A DNA stretch of 35,569 nucleotides from Alphaproteobacteria bacterium (GCA_009909005.1 JAAAOG010000085.1:1-35569), one strand, 5' to 3'; positions 1,763-13,201 are shown, counted from the stretch's first letter. Notes: generated by a model not told the origin, from the sequence alone. Numbers and translations are program-made.

Positions 1763-3928
1763 GTGAGCATCGCCGAACCGGAAGATTTCGCCCCCAGCGA
1801 TGCGGCAGTGATCGACCCCGCGTCGCCGCAACGCTTCATCAACCGCGAACTGTCCTGGCTGGCCTTCAATCAGCGGGTCCTGGACGAAGCCTATAACACG
1901 GCGCACCCACTATTGGAGCGGCTGCGGTTTTTGTCCATCTCGGCCAGCAACCTCGATGAATTCTACATGGTCCGCGTGGCCGGGTTGAAGGCCCAAGTCG
2001 CCCTGGGAGTCAAGAGCGCCAGCCAGGACGGGCTCACCCCGGCGCAGCAGCTGCAGGCCATTGCGTTGCGGGTGACCGAGCTGATGCGCGACCAGCAGGC
2101 CTGCTGGCGCCAGCTGCGCCAGTTGCTCAGGGATTCCGGGATCCTGGTGCTCGACCCGCGGGAGATTGACGAGGTCGACCGGCAATGGCTGGCGGAGACC
2201 TTCCAGCGCGACATTTTCCCCATCCTGACGCCGCTGGCCATCGATCCCGCCCACCCCTTCCCCTTCATCCCGAATCTCGGGCTCAGCCTCGCCATCCAGA
2301 TCCTGAACCGCGAGGAAGCGGTGGAGCGCAACGCCCTGGTGCCGCTGCCGCCGCAGCTGCCCCGCTTCATCCGCCTGCCCGGCGAGAATATCCGCTTCTG
2401 CCTGTTCGAGGTGGTGGTGCTGATGTTCCTCGACCGGCTGTTCCCCGGCTTCGAGGCCCAGGACCATGGCGTGTTCCGGGTGATTCGCGACAGTGAAATG
2501 GAGATCGACGAAGAAGCGGAAGACCTGGTCAAAACGTTCGAAAGCGCGCTCAAGCGGCGGCGGCGCGGCAGCGTCATCCGGTTGACCGTCGATGCCGACA
2601 TGCCCGCGCCGCTGCGGAATTTCGTCCGCAAGCAGCTCGCAGTGCCGGACGAGGACGTCTATCCGCTGGACGGGCTGATCGGCCTGGCCGACACCAAGGC
2701 CTGCGTCGTCGACGATCGGCCGGATCTGCTGTTCACGCCCTACAATCCGCGCTTTCCCGAGCGCATCCGCGATTTCGGGGGCGACAGCTTTGCCGCCATC
2801 CGGGCCAAGGACATCGTTGTCCATCATCCCTATGAGAGCTTCGACGTCGTCGTCCAGTTCCTGCAGCAGGCGGCCCAGGATCCGGACGTCGTCGCCATCA
2901 AGCAGACCATCTACCGCACCTCCAAGCACTCGCCGATCGTCGCGGCACTGATCGAGGCGGCGGAGGCCGGCAAGTCGGTGACGGCCATGGTGGAGCTCAA
3001 GGCCCGCTTCGACGAGGAGGCGAATATCCGCCAGGCCCGCGACCTGGAGCGGGCCGGCGCCCAGGTGGTCTACGGCTTCCTCAACCTGAAGACACACGCC
3101 AAGGTGTCGCTGGTGGTGCGGCGGGAAATCGGCGGCCTCGGCACCTATGTCCACTTCGGCACCGGCAATTATCATCCGATCACGGCAAAGATTTACACCG
3201 ACCTCAGCTTCTTCACCTGCGATCCCGGGCTCTGCCACGACGCGGCGGTGATCTTCAATTATATGACCGGTTACGCCACCCCGAACCGGATGGAGAAGCT
3301 GGCCATTGCGCCGCTGCATCTGCGGGCGGTGCTGCTGGAGGGCATCGACCGCGAGATCGCCCACGCCAGGGAAGGCCGGCCGGGGCAGATTTGGGCCAAG
3401 ATGAACTCGCTGGTCGACGGTGATATCATCGACGCGCTTTACCGGGCCTCGCAGGCGGGGGTGGAGATCGACCTGGTGGTCCGCGGCATCTGCTGCCTCA
3501 GGCCCGGCCTGCCCGGCCTGTCGGAGAATATCCGCGTCAAGAGCATTGTCGGGCGTTTCCTGGAGCACTCGCGTATCATCATCTTCGCCGACGGTGAGAG
3601 GCTGCCCTCGGCCAGGGCGGCCGTCTACATCTCCTCGGCCGACTGGATGCCGCGCAATCTCGACACCCGCATCGAAAGCCTGGTGCCGATCGAGAACCCG
3701 ACCGTCCGCCGCCAGGTGATGGAGCAGATCATGGTCGCCAATCTCAAGGACGAGACCAGCAGCTGGCTCCTGGCCGGCGACGGCAATTACGAAAGACTGG
3801 CCGCCAGGCCCGGTGCCTTCAGCGCCCATCAATACTTCATGACCAATCCCAGCCTGTCCGGGCGCGGCAGCGCCTCCGACCAGGGTACGGAGGCGCCCGA
3901 TCTGATGCCCCCGGCCATCGATTCCTGA
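1763..3928 (+). CDS. ppk: Polyphosphate kinase 1
   Basis: PPK1 reversibly transfers the gamma-phosphate of ATP onto inorganic polyphosphate. The protein has 721 residues, the normal family length. Its N-terminal domain starts with [19 protein letters not shown] and continues with [15 protein letters not shown]. The two phospholipase-D-like catalytic domains follow. The autophosphorylated His is in [11 protein letters not shown] (His445) and the second active-site His is in [10 protein letters not shown] (His602). The start codon is GTG at 1763, preceded by a purine-rich AGGACAGGG about 2-10 bases upstream. No upstream ATG fits better. It is followed after 39 bases by ppx, so synthesis and degradation of polyphosphate are probably co-transcribed. 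Confidence 0.97.
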
Positions 3929-3967
3929 CGCGAAAGGGGCCGCGACCATGCCCGAAGGTCCGGGCCG

Positions 3968-6620: not shown

Positions 6621-7391
6621 TCAGGGGGACCACCCCTCCTCGAGCAGGCGGCTTTCCTCCTGCGGGGCAAGAGGCTGGCCTGCGCCCATCGCGTCGAGCA
6701 TGGAGCCCAGGGCATCCCCCGCCGGTCCGCCGGCCGGGACAAAGCCGTTTGCGCCCGATGGCGTTTGCTGGGGTGCGGCCACCAGGATCTCGACATGCCA
6801 GTCGCCGGACGGCGTGCGGCAGGCGATCCCGAGTTCCGTTTCCTGCGGCAGCGCCTCCACGACTTCGAACTCGCGGCAGTAGCGTCCCGCCGCGTCGCGG
6901 AACGTCAGCATCGGACGCACGCCGCTGTCCGTGATGCTGCCGCTGGCAAGCGTCTCCAGGGCCGTGAAGAGCGGCCCGCCGGGTTGTGCCGTCCCCGGCG
7001 CGGCGACAACACGCGTGTCAGTCCCCGGGCCCCAGAGCAGCCCGCCGATGCCCAGGCCGGCCGCCAGGCCGAAGACCAGCGCGACCGATGCGGCGAGGGC
7101 GGCGGGCCGGCGGCTTGGCCGATGCGCCCGGCGCCCGAAGCCCCGTGCGGCCGGGACGGCCGCCCCGGCCGGATGGCTCTCGATCGCCCTCCGGATTGCG
7201 GCCGGGACCGGCTCCGCCAGAGGATCCTCATAGGCCGCCATCAATGCTTGATTGGTTTTGCGTACGGCTTCGGCATAGGCCCCGGCCTCGGGGTCGGCAA
7301 CGACCAGGCGAGCGATCCGCTCGGCATCCGTGCCGTCGAGCTGACCGTCCACCCAGGCGGCGATCTCGGCCTCGGTCCATTCGGTGCTCAT
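6621..7391 (-). CDS. Membrane-anchored anti-sigma factor
   Basis: A 256-residue protein whose start overlaps the end of the ECF sigma gene by 4 bases, the standard sigma/anti-sigma arrangement. The N-terminal cytoplasmic part (EAEIAAWVDGQLDGTDAERI, residues 7-26) has the helical sigma-binding pattern of anti-sigma domains. It lacks the His-x3-Cys-x2-Cys zinc motif. One membrane segment lies near residues 97-121 (LAASVALVFGLAAGLGIGGL). The roughly 130-residue C-terminal part is therefore predicted to be periplasmic. It contains two Cys (one in RYCREFEV, one in GIACRTPSG) that could form a disulfide. It probably holds the sigma factor inactive until a signal outside the cytoplasm releases it. 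Confidence 0.85.
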   Translation of the reverse strand: MSTEWTEAEIAAWVDGQLDGTDAERIARLVVADPEAGAYAEAVRKTNQALMAAYEDPLAEPVPAAIRRAIESHPAGAAVPAARGFGRRAHRPSRRPAALAASVALVFGLAAGLGIGGLLWGPGTDTRVVAAPGTAQPGGPLFTALETLASGSITDSGVRPMLTFRDAAGRYCREFEVVEALPQETELGIACRTPSGDWHVEILVAAPQQTPSGANGFVPAGGPAGDALGSMLDAMGAGQPLAPQEESRLLEEGWSP

Positions 7392-7891
7392 GGTGTCGTG
7401 TCCTTGGTGCTGGCCATCAACCGGGCGCGCGCGCGTGCCAGACGGCTCATGACCGTCCCGACCGGAATTGAGAGGATCGCGGCGGTTTCGGCGTAGGAGG
7501 CGCCCTCGATGGCAACCAGCGCGATCACTGCCCGTTGGTCTTCCGGCAGCGCGTCCATCGCGTCGCGCACCCGTACCAGCGTCAGCCGGTCTTCGGACTG
7601 CCGGACTGCGGCGCCCTCGTCCGAGAGGCGGTCAAGCGCCTCCGGATCCGACCGCGTGTCCCAACGGCGTGTGCGCCGCATCGTATCGAGCCAAGTCGTT
7701 TGCACGATCCGGAACAGCCAGCTGTCCAGCCGCGTCCCGTCGCGGTACTGATGCAGCCGTTCCAGGGCCTTGATGCAGGCCGTCTGCACGAGATCGTCGC
7801 CGTCGGGCTTCGAACCTGTCAGCGCGTAGGCGAAGCGGCGCAGGCGCGGCACCAGCGCTACCATTTCGGCTTTGATCGTCTCGTGCATCAT
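7388..7891 (-). CDS. ECF-type RNA polymerase sigma factor
   Basis: A 167-residue sigma-70 family protein with only regions 2 and 4. Region 2 includes RLRRFAYALTGSKPDGDDLV and QTACIKALERL, with SWLFRIVQTTWLDTMRRTRR for promoter opening. Region 4 includes MDALPEDQRAVIALVAIEG and the helix-turn-helix SYAETAAILSIPVGTVMSRL. The start may be at 7891 or at the next ATG codon at 7888. Neither has a strong ribosome binding site. The anti-sigma gene follows with a 4-base overlap. A promoter-like element on the minus strand at 7922-7952 matches one in front of the NTPase gene at 9562, suggesting autoregulation and a small regulon. Confidence 0.93.
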   Translation of the reverse strand: MMHETIKAEMVALVPRLRRFAYALTGSKPDGDDLVQTACIKALERLHQYRDGTRLDSWLFRIVQTTWLDTMRRTRRWDTRSDPEALDRLSDEGAAVRQSEDRLTLVRVRDAMDALPEDQRAVIALVAIEGASYAETAAILSIPVGTVMSRLARARARLMASTKDTTP

Positions 7892-7921
7892 CGATCCGCG
7901 GTTCGTCGCGCCGTCGTCGGG

Positions 7922-7952
7922 GGGACAACGGCGCGCCCGCGCATCTATTCCC
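7922..7952 (-). promoter_or_regulatory. Predicted ECF-dependent promoter of the sigma/anti-sigma operon
   Basis: Minus-strand reading gives GGGAATAG (7945-7952), exactly 14 bases, then CGTTGTCCC (7922-7930). The same 17 bases with the same spacing recur on the plus strand at 9478-9508. Viewed as GGAAT-N16-CGTT, it has the size and spacing of ECF -35/-10 elements. Predicted start is near 7916, some 25 bases before the sigma ATG. Confidence 0.65.
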
Positions 7953-8019
7953 GAAACCGACGACTTTTCCCAGGGCTCGGGCGTTGTCGGCCGGAGGCGG
8001 CAAGCGGAGGATCCGATCC

Positions 8020-9456
8020 ATGTCGAGAATTCTGAGATTGTGCGCCGTTGCGATGGTCCTTGTCCTTCTCCAGCACGAGGCCCCGCAAGACGGCAGGCTG
8101 ATCGGCCAGGCCCAGGCCGATGACGGCGACGGCGGCGGAGGAGACGGAGGCGACGGAGGCGACGGAGGCGACGGTGGGGATGGAGGAGATGGCGGCGACA
8201 ATGGCGGCGGCGACAATGGCGGCGGCGACAATGGTGACGGCGACAATGGCGACGATGATGGCGGCGGCGGACGGGACGCCCCTTCGGACGGCGGCGAGGG
8301 TCGGGGCGTGCGCGCCTCCAATGGCGGCTCCGGCGGCGGCGACCCTTTCGGGGCCGTCATCGACTTTCTGTTTGGAACGGAAGGCAGTGATTTCGTTGAG
8401 GACGAGCTCATCGCCGTGCGGCTGGCGGTCGCCGACCGGACGGCCCTCCTGAATGCCGGCTTCCGCGTTCTCCTGGAGCAGCCGCTGCCCGGCATCGGTG
8501 AGGTTCTGACTATTCTGGCCGTTCCGGCCGGCCTGGGAAGCGAGGAGGGGCTCGGCGTTGCCCGCGGCCTCGCCCCGGATGCCCTGATCGACCTCAATCA
8601 CCTTTATGCCGGCGGCGGGACAGGGTGCGCCGGCGAGGCCTGCTGGGGGGCCCGGCTGGTCGGGTTGACGCCCCTGCCGGCGACGGCCTGTGTGCGGGGT
8701 GCGCCGATCGCCGTCATCGACACGGCTGTCGAGTCAAGCCACCCGGCATTCGCCGGAGCCCGGATTGAGACCCGGAGTTTCCTGCGGCCGGCCACGCCGC
8801 CGGGGGCCTCTGCGCACGGGACCGCGATTGCCGCCCTGCTGGTCGGCACGGTGCATCCCGAAGCCCGGCCGCTTGCGCCCGGCGCATCGCTGCTGGCGGC
8901 CGAAGTCTTTGGTGCCGACGATGACGGCACGGTGCTGGCGGACGCGGCAGCCATCCTGCGGGCGATCGATTGGGCGATGACCAGGCGGGCCCGGGTCATC
9001 GCCCTCAGCCTGGCGGGGCCGCCCAACGCCTTGCTGCGGCTCGGGACGCAGCGCGCGGCGGCGCGGGCCAACCTGGTGGCCGCCGCCGGCAATGGCGGGC
9101 CGGGGGGCGAGCCGGCCTATCCCGCCGCCTGGCCGGAGGTGATGGCGGTCGCCGCTGTCGACCGGCGGATGCGTCCTTATCGTCGGGGCACCCGGGGAGA
9201 CTATGTCGAAATCGCCGCGCCCGGCGTGGACGTGCTGTCTGCCGGGGTCGGCGGTGGCCGGCAGGCCTGGACCGGCAGCAGCTTCGCCGTGCCGTTCGTG
9301 GCCGCGGCCTTGCTGCGCGCCCGGGCCGAGAGCGGCGGCGATCCGCAGGCTGCCCGGCAACGCCTGGCCCGCAGTGCTCGCGACCTCGGCGCGCCGGGAC
9401 GCGACCCCATCTTCGGCCATGGCCTGCTCAGCGATCCCGGAAATCGGTGCTGGTGA
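8020..9456 (+). CDS. Secreted subtilisin-like serine protease (S8) with Gly/Asp-rich N-terminal region
   Basis: The open frame extends further upstream, but the ATG at 8020 has a GGAGG 9 bases before it (8006-8010) and begins a signal peptide (MSRILRLCAVAMVLVLLQ, likely cut after AQA near residue 33). This gives 478 residues. Residues about 34-110 are a low-complexity Gly/Asp/Asn stretch. Next comes a segment of about 110 residues that may be a propeptide. The S8 domain carries Asp234 in AVIDTAVESSHPAF, His266 in SAHGTAIAALLVG and the nucleophile Ser421 in TGSSFAVPFVAA. The oxyanion Asn is probably that in AAAGNGGPGGE. The triad is intact, so it should be active outside the cytoplasm. Its position divergent from the ECF operon suggests it either degrades damaged envelope proteins or takes part in signalling. 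Confidence 0.9.
   Translation: MSRILRLCAVAMVLVLLQHEAPQDGRLIGQAQADDGDGGGGDGGDGGDGGDGGDGGDGGDNGGGDNGGGDNGDGDNGDDDGGGGRDAPSDGGEGRGVRASNGGSGGGDPFGAVIDFLFGTEGSDFVEDELIAVRLAVADRTALLNAGFRVLLEQPLPGIGEVLTILAVPAGLGSEEGLGVARGLAPDALIDLNHLYAGGGTGCAGEACWGARLVGLTPLPATACVRGAPIAVIDTAVESSHPAFAGARIETRSFLRPATPPGASAHGTAIAALLVGTVHPEARPLAPGASLLAAEVFGADDDGTVLADAAAILRAIDWAMTRRARVIALSLAGPPNALLRLGTQRAAARANLVAAAGNGGPGGEPAYPAAWPEVMAVAAVDRRMRPYRRGTRGDYVEIAAPGVDVLSAGVGGGRQAWTGSSFAVPFVAAALLRARAESGGDPQAARQRLARSARDLGAPGRDPIFGHGLLSDPGNRCW
8124..8277 (+). repeat. Tandem short repeats encoding the Gly/Asp/Asn-rich linker
   Basis: Within the protease gene, a 9-bp unit GGCGACGGA is repeated in tandem. It is followed by about three copies of a 15-bp unit resembling GGCGGCGACAATGGC and by degenerate versions. 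All keep frame and encode Gly-Asp-Gly and Gly-Gly-Asp-Asn repeats. Such repeats can change length by slippage. The many Asp/Asn residues could bind calcium after export, but there is no strict RTX nonapeptide. Confidence 0.8.
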
Positions 9457-9561: not shown

Positions 9562-10635
9562 ATGGTGACGACCCGCATCAACGCCGACCGCCTGGCCGCA
9601 CTCAAGCCGTCCTTCGCGACGCGCCGCGTCGATCGGAACGATATCGGCAGCCTTGACCGGGAGGCCTCGGACCTGAAGCCGGGAGACCTGGTGGTGGCGC
9701 GCGTCACCGAGGTCGGCCATCACGCCAACATCGAACGCCCGAATGGACGCCGGTCGAAGCTGTTTTCCGGCGATGAGATTCTCGTCGCCTGCGGGGCGCG
9801 CTATGCGCCGGACCAGTTCGAGGCCGAGGCTCCGGTGGCCGTCGGGCCTGCCGAGCTGGTGGCGGCAGGCGGCATTGTCGGCCATGTCGGCTGCGCCCAT
9901 GACCGCATGAAGCCGGCGACGCAGGTCACGATCCTGGGCGCGGCCTGCCGCCGCGACGGCCGGCGTCTGACGCTGGCCGACTATGCCCTTCGGACCCCGC
10001 CCGCGCCGGTGACGGTGCCGGTGGTCGCCGTCTGCGGCACCGCCATGAATGCCGGGAAGACCCATACGGCGGCATCCCTGGTGCGCGGGCTTGCCGTCAG
10101 CGGCGTGCGCGTGGCGGCGATCAAGGTCACCGGCACCGGCGCCGGCGGCGATCTCTGGTCCTTTCACGATGCCGGAGCGGCGTTCGTCGGCGATTTCACC
10201 GATGCCGGGTTCGCGACGACCTACCGGCAGCCGGTCCCAGACATCCTTGAGGGGGCCCGGCGACTAATCACCGAGGCGGAAGCCGCCGGCTGTGCGGCCA
10301 TCGTCCTCGAAGTGGCCGACGGTTTGTGCCAGGCCGAGACGGCGGCGCTGCTGCAGGCGGACGGATTTCGGGAGATGCTGTCGGGCGTCATTTTCGCAGC
10401 CGGCGATGCCATGGGGGCCGAGGCGGGCGTCGCCTGGCTGCGGCGGGCCGGCCACCGGGTTCTGGCCGTGGCCGGGCGTCTCACCTGTGCGCCGCTGGCG
10501 GTGCGCGAGGCCGAAGCCGCCATCGGGATCCCCTGCCTGACGCCGGCCGACTTCCTCTCTCGCGACCCTCTCGCCCGGTTGCTGCCGAGTTTCTGCATGA
10601 CGCCCGTGCCGGAACCCGGGTGGATTGCCGCCTGA
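9562..10635 (+). CDS. P-loop NTPase with BioD/MobB-like Walker A (unrecognised function)
   Basis: A 357-residue cytoplasmic protein. The first 145 residues form a separate domain with DLKPGDLVVARVTEVGHHAN and a conserved-looking GGIVGHVGCAHDRMKP. The C-terminal domain starts with a Walker A, VCGTAMNAGKTHTAASLV (Gly159 to Lys166), followed by VRVAAIKVTGTGAGGDLWSF, a pattern close to dethiobiotin synthetase and MobB in the SIMIBI class. A hydrophobic strand IVLEVADGLCQAET may be Walker B. The start is ATG 9562, after a GGAAG. It precedes the ABC-like gene by 27 bases. The predicted ECF promoter lies just upstream. I cannot assign a reaction. A DUF1611-type ligase-like activity or an ATPase serving the neighbour are possibilities only. 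Confidence 0.8.
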   Translation: MVTTRINADRLAALKPSFATRRVDRNDIGSLDREASDLKPGDLVVARVTEVGHHANIERPNGRRSKLFSGDEILVACGARYAPDQFEAEAPVAVGPAELVAAGGIVGHVGCAHDRMKPATQVTILGAACRRDGRRLTLADYALRTPPAPVTVPVVAVCGTAMNAGKTHTAASLVRGLAVSGVRVAAIKVTGTGAGGDLWSFHDAGAAFVGDFTDAGFATTYRQPVPDILEGARRLITEAEAAGCAAIVLEVADGLCQAETAALLQADGFREMLSGVIFAAGDAMGAEAGVAWLRRAGHRVLAVAGRLTCAPLAVREAEAAIGIPCLTPADFLSRDPLARLLPSFCMTPVPEPGWIAA

Positions 10636-10662
10636 AGGTCCGGTGGGTTGGAGGATCGTCCG

Positions 10663-12099
10663 ATGTCCCCGCGCCACGTGCCTTCCAACGGCCTTCCCGG
10701 TCTGCTGGCCGGACGCCGGCGCCGTTGGGCCTTTGCCCGGCTGCTGGCCAACGGCCTCGTGCAGGCCGGGGGTGCCGTCGCCCTGCCCTTCGCCATTGCC
10801 GCACAGACGGATGGGGTGACGCCGTCCGGGCTGGCCGGGCTGGCCGGCCTGGCAGTTTTGCTGGTCGGGGCGAAGGCTCTGGAATTCATCGATGCCGAAC
10901 GGCTCGGTGCCGACTATGTCCAGCGCGTGCGGTTGTCGCTGCTCGACGGATTGCTGGCCGGCACGGCCTCGACCCGCCACGGCGTTGCCATGAGCCGGCT
11001 GATGAATGACCTCTCCGCCCTGAAGGACTGGGTCGGTCTTGGCCTCGCCCGGCTGATCGTCGCGCCGCTGGCCTTGGGCGGCTGCCTCGCCGCGGCGGCA
11101 CTGATTTCGCCGCTGCACCTTCTCGTTCTGGCTGCGCCGGTGCTGCTGGCGGGGCTGGTCGGCGGGGCGCTGGTCGCACCGCTCCGGCGGCGGGTTGGCG
11201 AGGTGCGACGACGCCGCGGGCGTGTCGCGGCGCGGGCCGGCGAGACGCTGCTGGCACGCGATCTCCTGAAGACCTTCGGTCAGGGCGGCCGGGGGCGGCG
11301 TCGGGTGGCCAGGGCCGGCCGGGCCCTTTACGAGGCCCAGATCCATCGCATGAGGCTGGCCGGCCTTGTCCGGGCCATGCCGGACATGCTGCTGCCGATG
11401 ACCGTGCTGCTGGCCGTCATCGTCGGGATGCCGTTCCGATCGGATACGGTCAGCATTGCCCTTCTTGCGGGGTTGGCCGCCGATCCGGTCCGCAAGGCCC
11501 TGCGCGCGATCGAATACCGGGCCGCGTTCGTCGTCGCCCGCCAGCGGCTGCTGCCCGGGCTCGGCCGCGGCCGGGTTCGGAATGCCCGACCGGCGACGCC
11601 CGCCGGTTCGGCAATCGACCCCCCGCCGGCCGGGTTGCATATGCTGAGGGGCCCGCATGCGGTTGCCCGCAGCTGCGTGCCCGAAGGCGCCGTGGCGGTC
11701 ACGGCGACGCCCGACGTCCTGCCGGGATCGCTGCGCCGGAACATCGACCTGACCCGACGCTGGCGCGGGGCGGACGACGGACTCGGCGAGATTGCCGCGG
11801 CATGCGGGCTGGCCGGTCCCGACTTTGCGCCGCAGGGGCTGGACACCCGGTTGCGGGAACGCGATCCACGCCTTTCCGGCTCCCTGGCCGCCCGCCTGTC
11901 GCTGGCCCGGGCGCTGGCCGCCGGGGTGCCGGCCGTCTGTGTCGATGCCCCGGTGCTTCTGGCGGAGGCCGAGGGCCGCGACCTTCTCAGGACGGTTCCG
12001 GACCGCTGGCCGGTGGCGCTGTACGTTCTGGACGGGGAGTCCGGTCCTGCGGAGCCGCGTTTCGCGCCAGAGCCATCCCCAGCTGCAGGGCCGTCATGA
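10663..12099 (+). CDS. ABC-exporter-like membrane protein with degenerate nucleotide-binding domain
   Basis: A 478-residue protein starting at ATG 10663 (GGAGG at 10650-10654, 8 bases upstream). A TTG at 10648 is a less likely start. Residues 1-310 look like an exporter transmembrane domain with about six membrane segments. Residues 330-460 align by eye with an ABC exporter NBD: PDVLPGSLRRNIDL matches the segment after the Q-loop, GLDTRLRERDPRLSGSLAAR (Leu404-Ser405-Gly406) replaces LSGGQ, and AVCVDAPVLL (Asp428-Ala429) replaces the Walker B LLLDEP. There is no Walker A, no catalytic Glu and no switch His. ATP hydrolysis by this domain is therefore unlikely, although the frame is intact and well preserved. 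The 3' end overlaps the convergent glycerate kinase gene by 113 bases. Confidence 0.8.
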   Translation: MSPRHVPSNGLPGLLAGRRRRWAFARLLANGLVQAGGAVALPFAIAAQTDGVTPSGLAGLAGLAVLLVGAKALEFIDAERLGADYVQRVRLSLLDGLLAGTASTRHGVAMSRLMNDLSALKDWVGLGLARLIVAPLALGGCLAAAALISPLHLLVLAAPVLLAGLVGGALVAPLRRRVGEVRRRRGRVAARAGETLLARDLLKTFGQGGRGRRRVARAGRALYEAQIHRMRLAGLVRAMPDMLLPMTVLLAVIVGMPFRSDTVSIALLAGLAADPVRKALRAIEYRAAFVVARQRLLPGLGRGRVRNARPATPAGSAIDPPPAGLHMLRGPHAVARSCVPEGAVAVTATPDVLPGSLRRNIDLTRRWRGADDGLGEIAAACGLAGPDFAPQGLDTRLRERDPRLSGSLAARLSLARALAAGVPAVCVDAPVLLAEAEGRDLLRTVPDRWPVALYVLDGESGPAEPRFAPEPSPAAGPS

Positions 12100-13201
12100 A
12101 CCGTGATGCGGCCCCGGCGAGCAGCGGCTCGGCCTCGGCCATCGCCTCTTTCAGCGCCATCGGCCGGTCGACGATCGGCACGACAGCCGACACGCCCTCG
12201 GATCGGAGGTCCTGCGGATCGCCCTCGATCAGGCCGGCAATGGCGATGGCGGGCACGCCGGCCGCCCTGGCACGGCGGGCGACGCTGACCGGGACCTTGC
12301 CGGCCAGCGACTGTGCGTCCAGCCGGCCCTCGCCGGTGATGACGAGGTCGGCACCGGCGATCGCCGCATCGAGGCCGGCGAGGCCGGCGATCAGCGGGAA
12401 CCCCGCCCGCATCTCCGCCCCCGCGGCCGAGCACAGCAGGAACCCGATGCCGCCGGCCGCCCCGGCCCCGGGTGTCTCGCGATGGTCGACGCCGGTCGTC
12501 GCGACCACCCGTTCGGCGAATTGCGCCATGCCGGCCTCGAAGACGGGAATGTCGGCTTCGGCCACGCCTTTTTGCGGGCCGAACACATGCACCGCGCCCT
12601 GCGGGCCGAGCAGCGGGCTGGTGACGTCGGTGGCGATCGTCAGGTTCACGGCGCGCAGGCGCCGGTCGAGCCCCGCAAGGTCGATGGCGGCGATACGGCC
12701 CAGCGTGCCGCCGGCGCCACGCAGCGGTTCGCCGTCGGCATCGAGGAAGCGGGCGCCGAGGGCGGCCAGGAGGCCGGTGCCGCCGTCGACCGTGGCGCTG
12801 CCGCCAATGCCGAGCAGGATGCGGGCCGCCCCGCGGTCCAGGGCGTCGCGGATCAGAACGCCGGTGCCGAAGGTCGAGGCGCGGACCGGGTCGGGGCTGT
12901 CGCCGAGCAGCGGCAGGCCGGAGGCGGCGGCCATTTCAATGACAGCCAGCCGCTCGCCGGCGATCCAGCCATAGGCGGCGTCGACCGGCCGGTCGAGCGG
13001 GTCGGGCACGGTGCAGCCGACGCGCTCGCCGCCGAGACAGGCGATCAGGGCCTCGACTGTGCCCTCGCCGCCGTCGGCCATGGGCAGCAGGACCGTTTCG
13101 ACGGTCCCGTCGACCCGGCGGAGGCCGTCGGCGATGGCCGCCGCCACGGCCGGCGCCGTGGCCGAGCCCTTGAAGGAATCGGGGGCGATCAAAATCCGCA
13201 T
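11987..13201 (-). CDS. Glycerate kinase (GlxK/GarK class)
   Basis: A 404-residue enzyme that phosphorylates D-glycerate, feeding glyoxylate- or glucarate-derived carbon into glycolysis. The N-terminus MRILIAPDSFKGSATAPAVA is the family hallmark. It is followed by LLPMADGGEGTVEAL, a glycine-rich LLGIGGSATVDGGTGLL and VITGEGRLDAQSLAGKVPVS. These are all features of the PF02595 glycerate kinase family rather than the MOFRL type. The normal family length is about 375-390. The last 35 or so residues here (RNAAPQDRTPRPERTAPP) are unconserved-looking and come from the stretch that overlaps the ABC-like gene on the other strand. The exact product (2- or 3-phosphoglycerate) cannot be told from sequence. 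Confidence 0.93.
   Translation of the reverse strand: MRILIAPDSFKGSATAPAVAAAIADGLRRVDGTVETVLLPMADGGEGTVEALIACLGGERVGCTVPDPLDRPVDAAYGWIAGERLAVIEMAAASGLPLLGDSPDPVRASTFGTGVLIRDALDRGAARILLGIGGSATVDGGTGLLAALGARFLDADGEPLRGAGGTLGRIAAIDLAGLDRRLRAVNLTIATDVTSPLLGPQGAVHVFGPQKGVAEADIPVFEAGMAQFAERVVATTGVDHRETPGAGAAGGIGFLLCSAAGAEMRAGFPLIAGLAGLDAAIAGADLVITGEGRLDAQSLAGKVPVSVARRARAAGVPAIAIAGLIEGDPQDLRSEGVSAVVPIVDRPMALKEAMAEAEPLLAGAASRFMTALQLGMALARNAAPQDRTPRPERTAPPASGPEPS

Follow-up and report, generated by a model that had tools for sequence, protein, structure and literature searches.

A P-loop protein gene and its dedicated ABC-exporter-like partner, in which the predicted ATPase has been lost repeatedly

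How does a membrane protein with the fold of an ABC exporter work when its nucleotide-binding domain (NBD) appears unable to bind or hydrolyze ATP, and what does the P-loop protein encoded directly before it contribute? This question is raised by a 35,569-nucleotide stretch of alphaproteobacterial DNA (GCA_009909005.1 JAAAOG010000085.1:1-35569), referred to here as the window. On its plus strand, the gene for a 357-aa P-loop protein (PL; 9562..10635), defined by its open reading frame, an AlphaFold2 model and structure matches, is followed by the gene for an ABC-exporter-like membrane protein with an NBD predicted to be non-working (10663..12099; 478 aa from the ATG, 483 aa from an alternative TTG at 10648). 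The gap is 27 bp to the ATG and 12 bp to the TTG. A first-pass annotation had described an intact P-loop gene directly before an exporter-like gene with a full-length frame, a membrane domain and a C-terminal NBD-like fold. This description was borne out, as the frame is open to 12099 and the model matches type IV exporters.

Both proteins were modeled with AlphaFold2, each folded as a separate chain. The ABC-like model reached a mean pLDDT of 88.3 and a pTM of 0.81, and its top structural matches were type IV ABC exporters across the whole length. CydDC (7zdt) aligned over 447 residues within the model range 11-469 (Z 23.5, rmsd 5.1), and the membrane domain and NBD fold are common to CydDC, TmrAB, MsbA and TM287/288 (Z 19-23). 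The transmembrane domain (TMD) comprises the helices of model residues 18-302 (10714..11568, plus strand), assigned from the secondary structure of the model and a partial match to PF00664 (residues 103-257; 24.6 bits, below the 28-bit cut-off, which is exceeded by the relatives at loci L057 and L103). The NBD-like remnant, residues ~323-460 (11629..12042, plus strand), was delimited by alignments, blocks of the model with pLDDT 77-95 and a match of the C-terminal part to CydC (residues 322-442, E 1e-14).

Unlike type IV ABC exporters, the window protein and 17 other partner proteins have no Walker A, and their signature, Walker B glutamate, D-loop and H-loop are eroded. Alignment of the window protein placed GPHAVARS in the position of GPNGAGKS (11650..11673, plus strand; context RGPHAVARSC). 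LSGS (LSGSL) replaces LSGGQ (11872..11883, plus strand), the Walker B remnant VCVDA(P) carries Ala for the catalytic Glu (11935..11949, plus strand), and the H-loop is missing, with Gly at the His-aligned column. The remnant is also shortened between the Walker A and Q-loop regions. Two elements are retained: GSLRRN, the TMD-facing segment past the Q-loop (11725..11742, plus strand), and RLSLARA, the helix following the signature. The loss of Walker A, the LSGS signature and the Asp-Ala Walker B had all been read correctly in the first-pass annotation. No GK[ST] was found in any of the six frames over 11200-12100, so that a hidden frameshift is rejected, and by G+C content at the codon positions the gene resembles its neighbors. 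On the opposite strand, a glycerate kinase ORF (11987-13201, minus) reaches with its non-conserved tail into the end of the gene (11987-12099). The closest relative of the protein (L057; 44% identity over 451 aa), encoded in another genome of a different family, has the same motif losses and likewise a shortened NBD, which excludes a sequencing error.

The PL model has a mean pLDDT of 95.7 and a pTM of 0.92. It shows a beta-rich N-terminal domain (~residues 1-145) and a SIMIBI P-loop domain (~150-342) with an intact P-loop, GTAMNAGKT (G159-T167; 10036..10062, plus strand; wider motif CGTAMNAGKTH, ~10033-10065). In structure comparisons residues 139-350 matched dethiobiotin synthetase (BioD; Z 16.6), TM0796/DUF1611 (2g0t; Z 16.3) and CTP synthetase (Z 16); the match list spans these residues, and the N-terminal domain lies outside it. 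The P-loop together with the BioD match assigns PL to the SIMIBI BioD-like P-loop fold, which residues 139-350 share with BioD, MobB and DUF1611 (TM0796, 2g0t) at Z 16-17. In contrast to the MobB and DUF1611 families themselves, PL stays under the curated cut-offs (MobB, PF03205: 18.2 bits against 26.6; DUF1611, PF07755: 17.6 against 25), and its N-terminal domain has no alignment to 2g0t. MobB, DUF1611 and dethiobiotin synthetase were rejected as family names, all scores being below the cut-offs.

An alignment of 65 relatives showed G159, M162, N163, G165, K166 and T167 to be invariant, an invariance that is partly built in because one genome scan pattern contained the P-loop; the second pattern, RYA[PS]DQFE, had no P-loop requirement. 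One genome (G006) carries two PL genes in tandem (L044:1669-2775 and 2784-3935), the first without a P-loop (DMIPGTKSALRN) and the second intact, which by their motifs form a predicted pseudo-enzyme pair on the PL side.

When the PL sequence alone was used to query genome contigs no match was obtained, and a query with the PL alignment gave matches. A scan of GTDB genomes with this alignment yielded at least 567 relatives, the best 80 of which were kept as named loci. In 47 of these 80 best matches (of at least 567) a dedicated ABC gene of one family lies directly downstream of PL; at one more of them the contig stops within the ABC gene. Another arrangement, found at 16 of the same best 80, has PL followed by genes for a type I secretion ABC protein and HlyD. 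Many PL-ABC pairs overlap by 4 bp (ATGA). Genomes from the family of the window (G002, G004, G005, G006 and G012) encode PL relatives of 45-47% identity with an ABC protein gene directly after them; the contigs of the loci in G012, G004 and G006 recur among the named loci as L052-L054. Because keeping the best 80 favors sequences close to the window, PL genes from a sample drawn evenly across the class were read as well. There the ABC gene adjoins 9 of 15 PL genes, eight with Walker A and one without (L198), and the six unpaired PL genes are lower-scoring ones. PL and the dedicated ABC gene form a conserved two-gene unit. The concern that the two genes might never be found together is dispelled; adjacency is frequent, but it does not extend to every locus.

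The state of the ATPase varies widely within this unit. Among the 47 paired ABC proteins, 24 are intact, 3 lack the catalytic Glu, 17 lack Walker A and 3 have no NBD. With the window protein and four from its family added, an alignment of 52 dedicated ABC proteins contained 27 intact forms, 4 with Walker A and no catalytic Glu (L045, L062, L070 and L104), 18 without Walker A and 3 without an NBD. The NBD-less proteins (L073, L077 and L102), all from Sphingomonadaceae, are 311-317 aa long and stop after the membrane domain; an alpha/beta hydrolase gene comes next at all three loci. As only one of the nine ABC proteins in the evenly drawn sample is Walker A-less, dead forms make up the smaller part overall.

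In a tree of the membrane domain, well-supported branches force at least four label changes for Walker A loss, and constraint to one clade was rejected both for Walker A loss (p-AU 5e-6) and for all non-intact forms (p-AU 6e-5). The window protein and L057 (an uncultured Neomegalonema) were paired with support 100/100, one Walker A-less clade extends over many families, and a separate Walker A-less lineage (L122, L126 and L088) is nested among intact proteins; deeper placements are uncertain owing to long branches. L088, titled Enemella evansiae, is nearly identical to L126 of Celeribacter, so this contig of an actinobacterial assembly may be contamination. Carriers of the dead form include named isolates of Mesorhizobium, Vibrio, Roseibium and Celeribacter. 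Walker A loss is therefore recurrent and shared with L057, though not general, and the combination of a P-loop protein with an ABC exporter whose NBD is predicted to be dead is found repeatedly and is conserved. No paper on the PL-ABC pair or on an ABC exporter family with recurrent Walker A loss was found in the literature; as far as it was searched, the repeated loss of the ATPase in an ABC-exporter architecture tied to a P-loop partner is undescribed.

The parallel losses could also reflect slow pseudogenization, in which a dispensable ABC protein decays independently in several lineages. All stages from intact to NBD-less are indeed seen, and the slot of some PL-A loci holds an ATP-grasp gene or nothing. 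For three pairs of closely related Walker A-less proteins, dN/dS of the NBD remnant was 0.27, 0.20 and 0.25; the membrane domain gave 0.10, 0.20 and 0.21, and PL 0.12, 0.19 and 0.09. The remnant in these pairs is under purifying selection. It accumulates amino-acid changes more quickly than the TMD does, and so may still be decaying. Erosion is greatest at the ATP-contact residues, where Walker A-less proteins retain the intact consensus at 8-35% (Walker A 15%, H-loop 8%, Walker B 33%). Retention in the TMD-facing segment (48%) and in the helix that follows the signature (72%) is about equal to or above that in the membrane domain (52%). Ratios of 0.20-0.27 for the remnant and 0.10-0.21 for the TMD, open frames of ~480-535 aa across divergent genera and a Walker A-less clade spanning many families all speak against pseudogenization, which we regard as improbable. 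Recent decay in this strain, the doubt attached to the pair in the first-pass annotation, was rejected: intact homologues exist, yet the closest homologue, from another family, is equally dead, the loss recurs in the tree, and the dN/dS of the remnant is low.

A missing ATPase could in principle be supplied from elsewhere. Degenerate sites are common among heterodimeric type I exporters (PMC7756269), and the dead protein might be one half of such a heterodimer, with an unlinked intact ABC half-transporter providing the other half and one degenerate site between them. TM287/288, TmrAB and Pdr5 share with the window protein the loss of the catalytic Glu and of signature residues, there confined to one NBD; in these exporters, however, the partner has a working site (PMC7756269), whereas the window protein has no nearby partner and no remaining ATP contacts. 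Candidate partners are available in genome G000, which encodes generic exporters, five of them over the PF00664 cut-off. The neighborhood table nevertheless lists no second exporter gene beside the Walker A-less genes, and a search of genomes with the dead form gave no intact protein of the dedicated family elsewhere; the exporters present there score as generic (~240-300 bits, where a true intact member reaches 744). In addition, all ATP contacts are eroded and not the catalytic ones alone, and the Sphingomonadaceae forms have no NBD. Such a heterodimer is thus unlikely.

The motor could instead be PL itself, docking as a SIMIBI NTPase under the membrane domain and driving or gating it in place of the dead NBD. 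ArsA, a SIMIBI ATPase that energizes the carrier ArsB, provides a precedent. The arsenite pump resembles the PL-ABC pair in that a SIMIBI protein stands beside a membrane protein; ArsA, however, is a tandem ATPase, ArsB does not have the ABC fold, and any coupling by PL is hypothetical. A redundant motor would predict recurrent NBD loss, the PL and ABC genes are tightly coupled in translation, and at no locus with a dead NBD has PL lost its P-loop (intact at 18/18 Walker A-less and 3/3 NBD-less loci). The P-loop is equally intact at every other paired locus, next to working NBDs, and next to type I secretion exporters, so that its conservation does not discriminate. Nor does the PL tree follow the ABC states neatly. 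The window PL groups with L052-L057, where the ABC partner is intact (L056), dead (L057 and the window) or absent, or where a RimK-like ATP-grasp protein stands in its place (L042/L052 and L043/L053); these differences indicate that partners have been exchanged at this locus, which also carries an S8 protease gene. The RimK-like ligase genes occupy the ABC slot of the orthologous S8-PL locus at L042:4120-5286 and L043:8139-9305. As distant PL relatives also occur in arginine operons without an adjoining transporter gene, it seems doubtful that PL has functionally replaced the ABC motor in several lineages and so left the NBD free to give up ATP binding and in the end to vanish, and a motor role of the ArsA-ArsB type is itself quite unlikely. 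The earlier proposal of PL as the working NTPase of a joint transporter is not sustained by this distribution.

An S8 subtilisin-like serine protease gene (7984..9456, plus strand; likely start ATG 8020; PF00082, E 1.3e-25) lies upstream of PL in the same orientation, as it does at L042, L043, L055, L056 and L057. After a signal-like N-terminus its product shows Asp/Gly repeats (DGGDGGDGG..., then DNGGGDNGG...; 7984-8300), and a comparable Asp/Gly-rich stretch occurs in L096. Divergently from S8, PL and the ABC gene are encoded an ECF sigma factor with Sigma70_r2/r4_2 domains (7388..7891, minus strand) and an anti-sigma factor (6621..7391, minus strand; NF052375, E 4e-6, below the cut-off). 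Orthologues at L042 and L043 have 70-72% identity for the sigma factor, in the same place, and 49-50% for the anti-sigma factor, and the order antisigma/ecf, S8, PL is repeated at L042, L043 and L055. The first-pass annotation had placed these genes accurately. Alignment of the divergent intergenic region, which holds the putative promoters (7892..8019), with L042 and L043 revealed a common element, GGAATA-N15-CGTTGTC, reading toward ecf, and CGTTGTC faces the S8 gene. This element fits ECF autoregulation, and the divergent ecf/anti-sigma genes together with the conserved element make ECF control of the PL-ABC genes plausible. One may then ask whether the dead protein has ceased to be a transporter and anchors PL in the membrane as a sensor or scaffold taking part in ECF or two-component signaling. 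Genes for ECF, anti-sigma and S8 proteins, or for histidine kinases and response regulators, are frequent neighbors, and the NBD remnant is retained as a fold only. The same regulatory neighbors occur at loci with intact NBDs, however, and the anti-sigma factor has its own gene, conserved at L042 and L043 where the ABC protein is missing. Such a sensor or scaffold without a transport function is unlikely.

Hints to the role of PL come from its wider genomic context. Distant relatives head PL-argC-argB(-argD-argF) clusters in G045 (L051:7610-8653), G272 (L210:348-1394) and G251 (L211:457-1518), as judged from the neighboring genes. Searches for argJ and argA with two models gave no hit over the cut-off in these three genomes; argJ is present in G000 and G004. 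The occurrence of PL relatives in arginine operons where neither gene is detectable makes PL more likely an amino-acid-modifying enzyme, and these relatives may be an unrecognized N-acetylglutamate-forming enzyme. DgcN, a D-glutamate conversion enzyme, is a DUF1611 protein that N-acetylates. Directly after two other relatives (L208:244-1287 and L209:4258-5316) lies a gene for beta-aspartyl-peptidase, and further neighbors encode RimK-like and CphA-like ATP-grasp ligases, a capsule-synthesis domain (PGA_cap) and an aspartyl/asparaginyl hydroxylase. Our best guess from these neighborhoods is that PL is an enzyme acylating or amidating acidic amino acids or peptides. CphA-like ligases are also encoded at two of the PL loci that carry genes for a type I secretion ABC protein and HlyD (L106:10685-12940 and L069:11789-14962), one ligase being fused to a poly-gamma-glutamate capsule (PGA_cap) domain; both loci look like a secreted amide-polymer or peptide system.

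Taken together, we favor, with a probability of about one half, a biosynthetic PL that is paired with a dedicated carrier of type IV ABC fold for its product or substrate, the dead-NBD forms working without an ATPase of their own. PL would make or modify a small compound, probably an acylated or amide-linked acidic amino acid or small peptide, and the membrane protein would move the product or substrate of PL across the inner membrane. In most lineages this protein would be an ordinary ATP-driven exporter. In the lineage of the window and several others the NBD would neither bind nor hydrolyze ATP, and the protein would act as a gradient-driven or facilitative carrier like SbmA, or would anchor or scaffold PL at the membrane; the NBD remnant would persist solely for structural docking beneath the membrane domain. 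We infer all four elements of this proposal, namely PL as an enzyme, the nature of the compound, the direction of transport and the ATP-independent action.

That an ABC-exporter membrane fold can work without an NBD is known from the SbmA/BacA proteins (SLiPTs), for which descent from a full ABC protein has been proposed (PMC13316013). SLiPTs have neither an NBD nor coupling helices; they possess TM0 and a glutamate ladder and are proton-driven (PMC13316013). The window protein differs in that an NBD-like remnant is present and modeled. Alignment of the membrane domain revealed no acidic columns gained in the Walker A-less clade, so that nothing specific supports proton drive for the proposed carrier. 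The NBD-less Sphingomonadaceae proteins (L073, L077 and L102) are the closer parallel to SLiPTs.

PL represents an uncharacterized, widespread P-loop family with at least 567 relatives, and in some small genomes it may supply the initial acetylation that arginine synthesis is missing there. With the parts that bind and burn ATP lost again and again, the pump would have to act unlike known ABC pumps. ABC transporters are defined by their ATPase; the dedicated family shows every stage from an intact motor to none while the same partner is kept. Since all these stages are found in living lineages, the question of how a primary transporter becomes something else can be asked directly.
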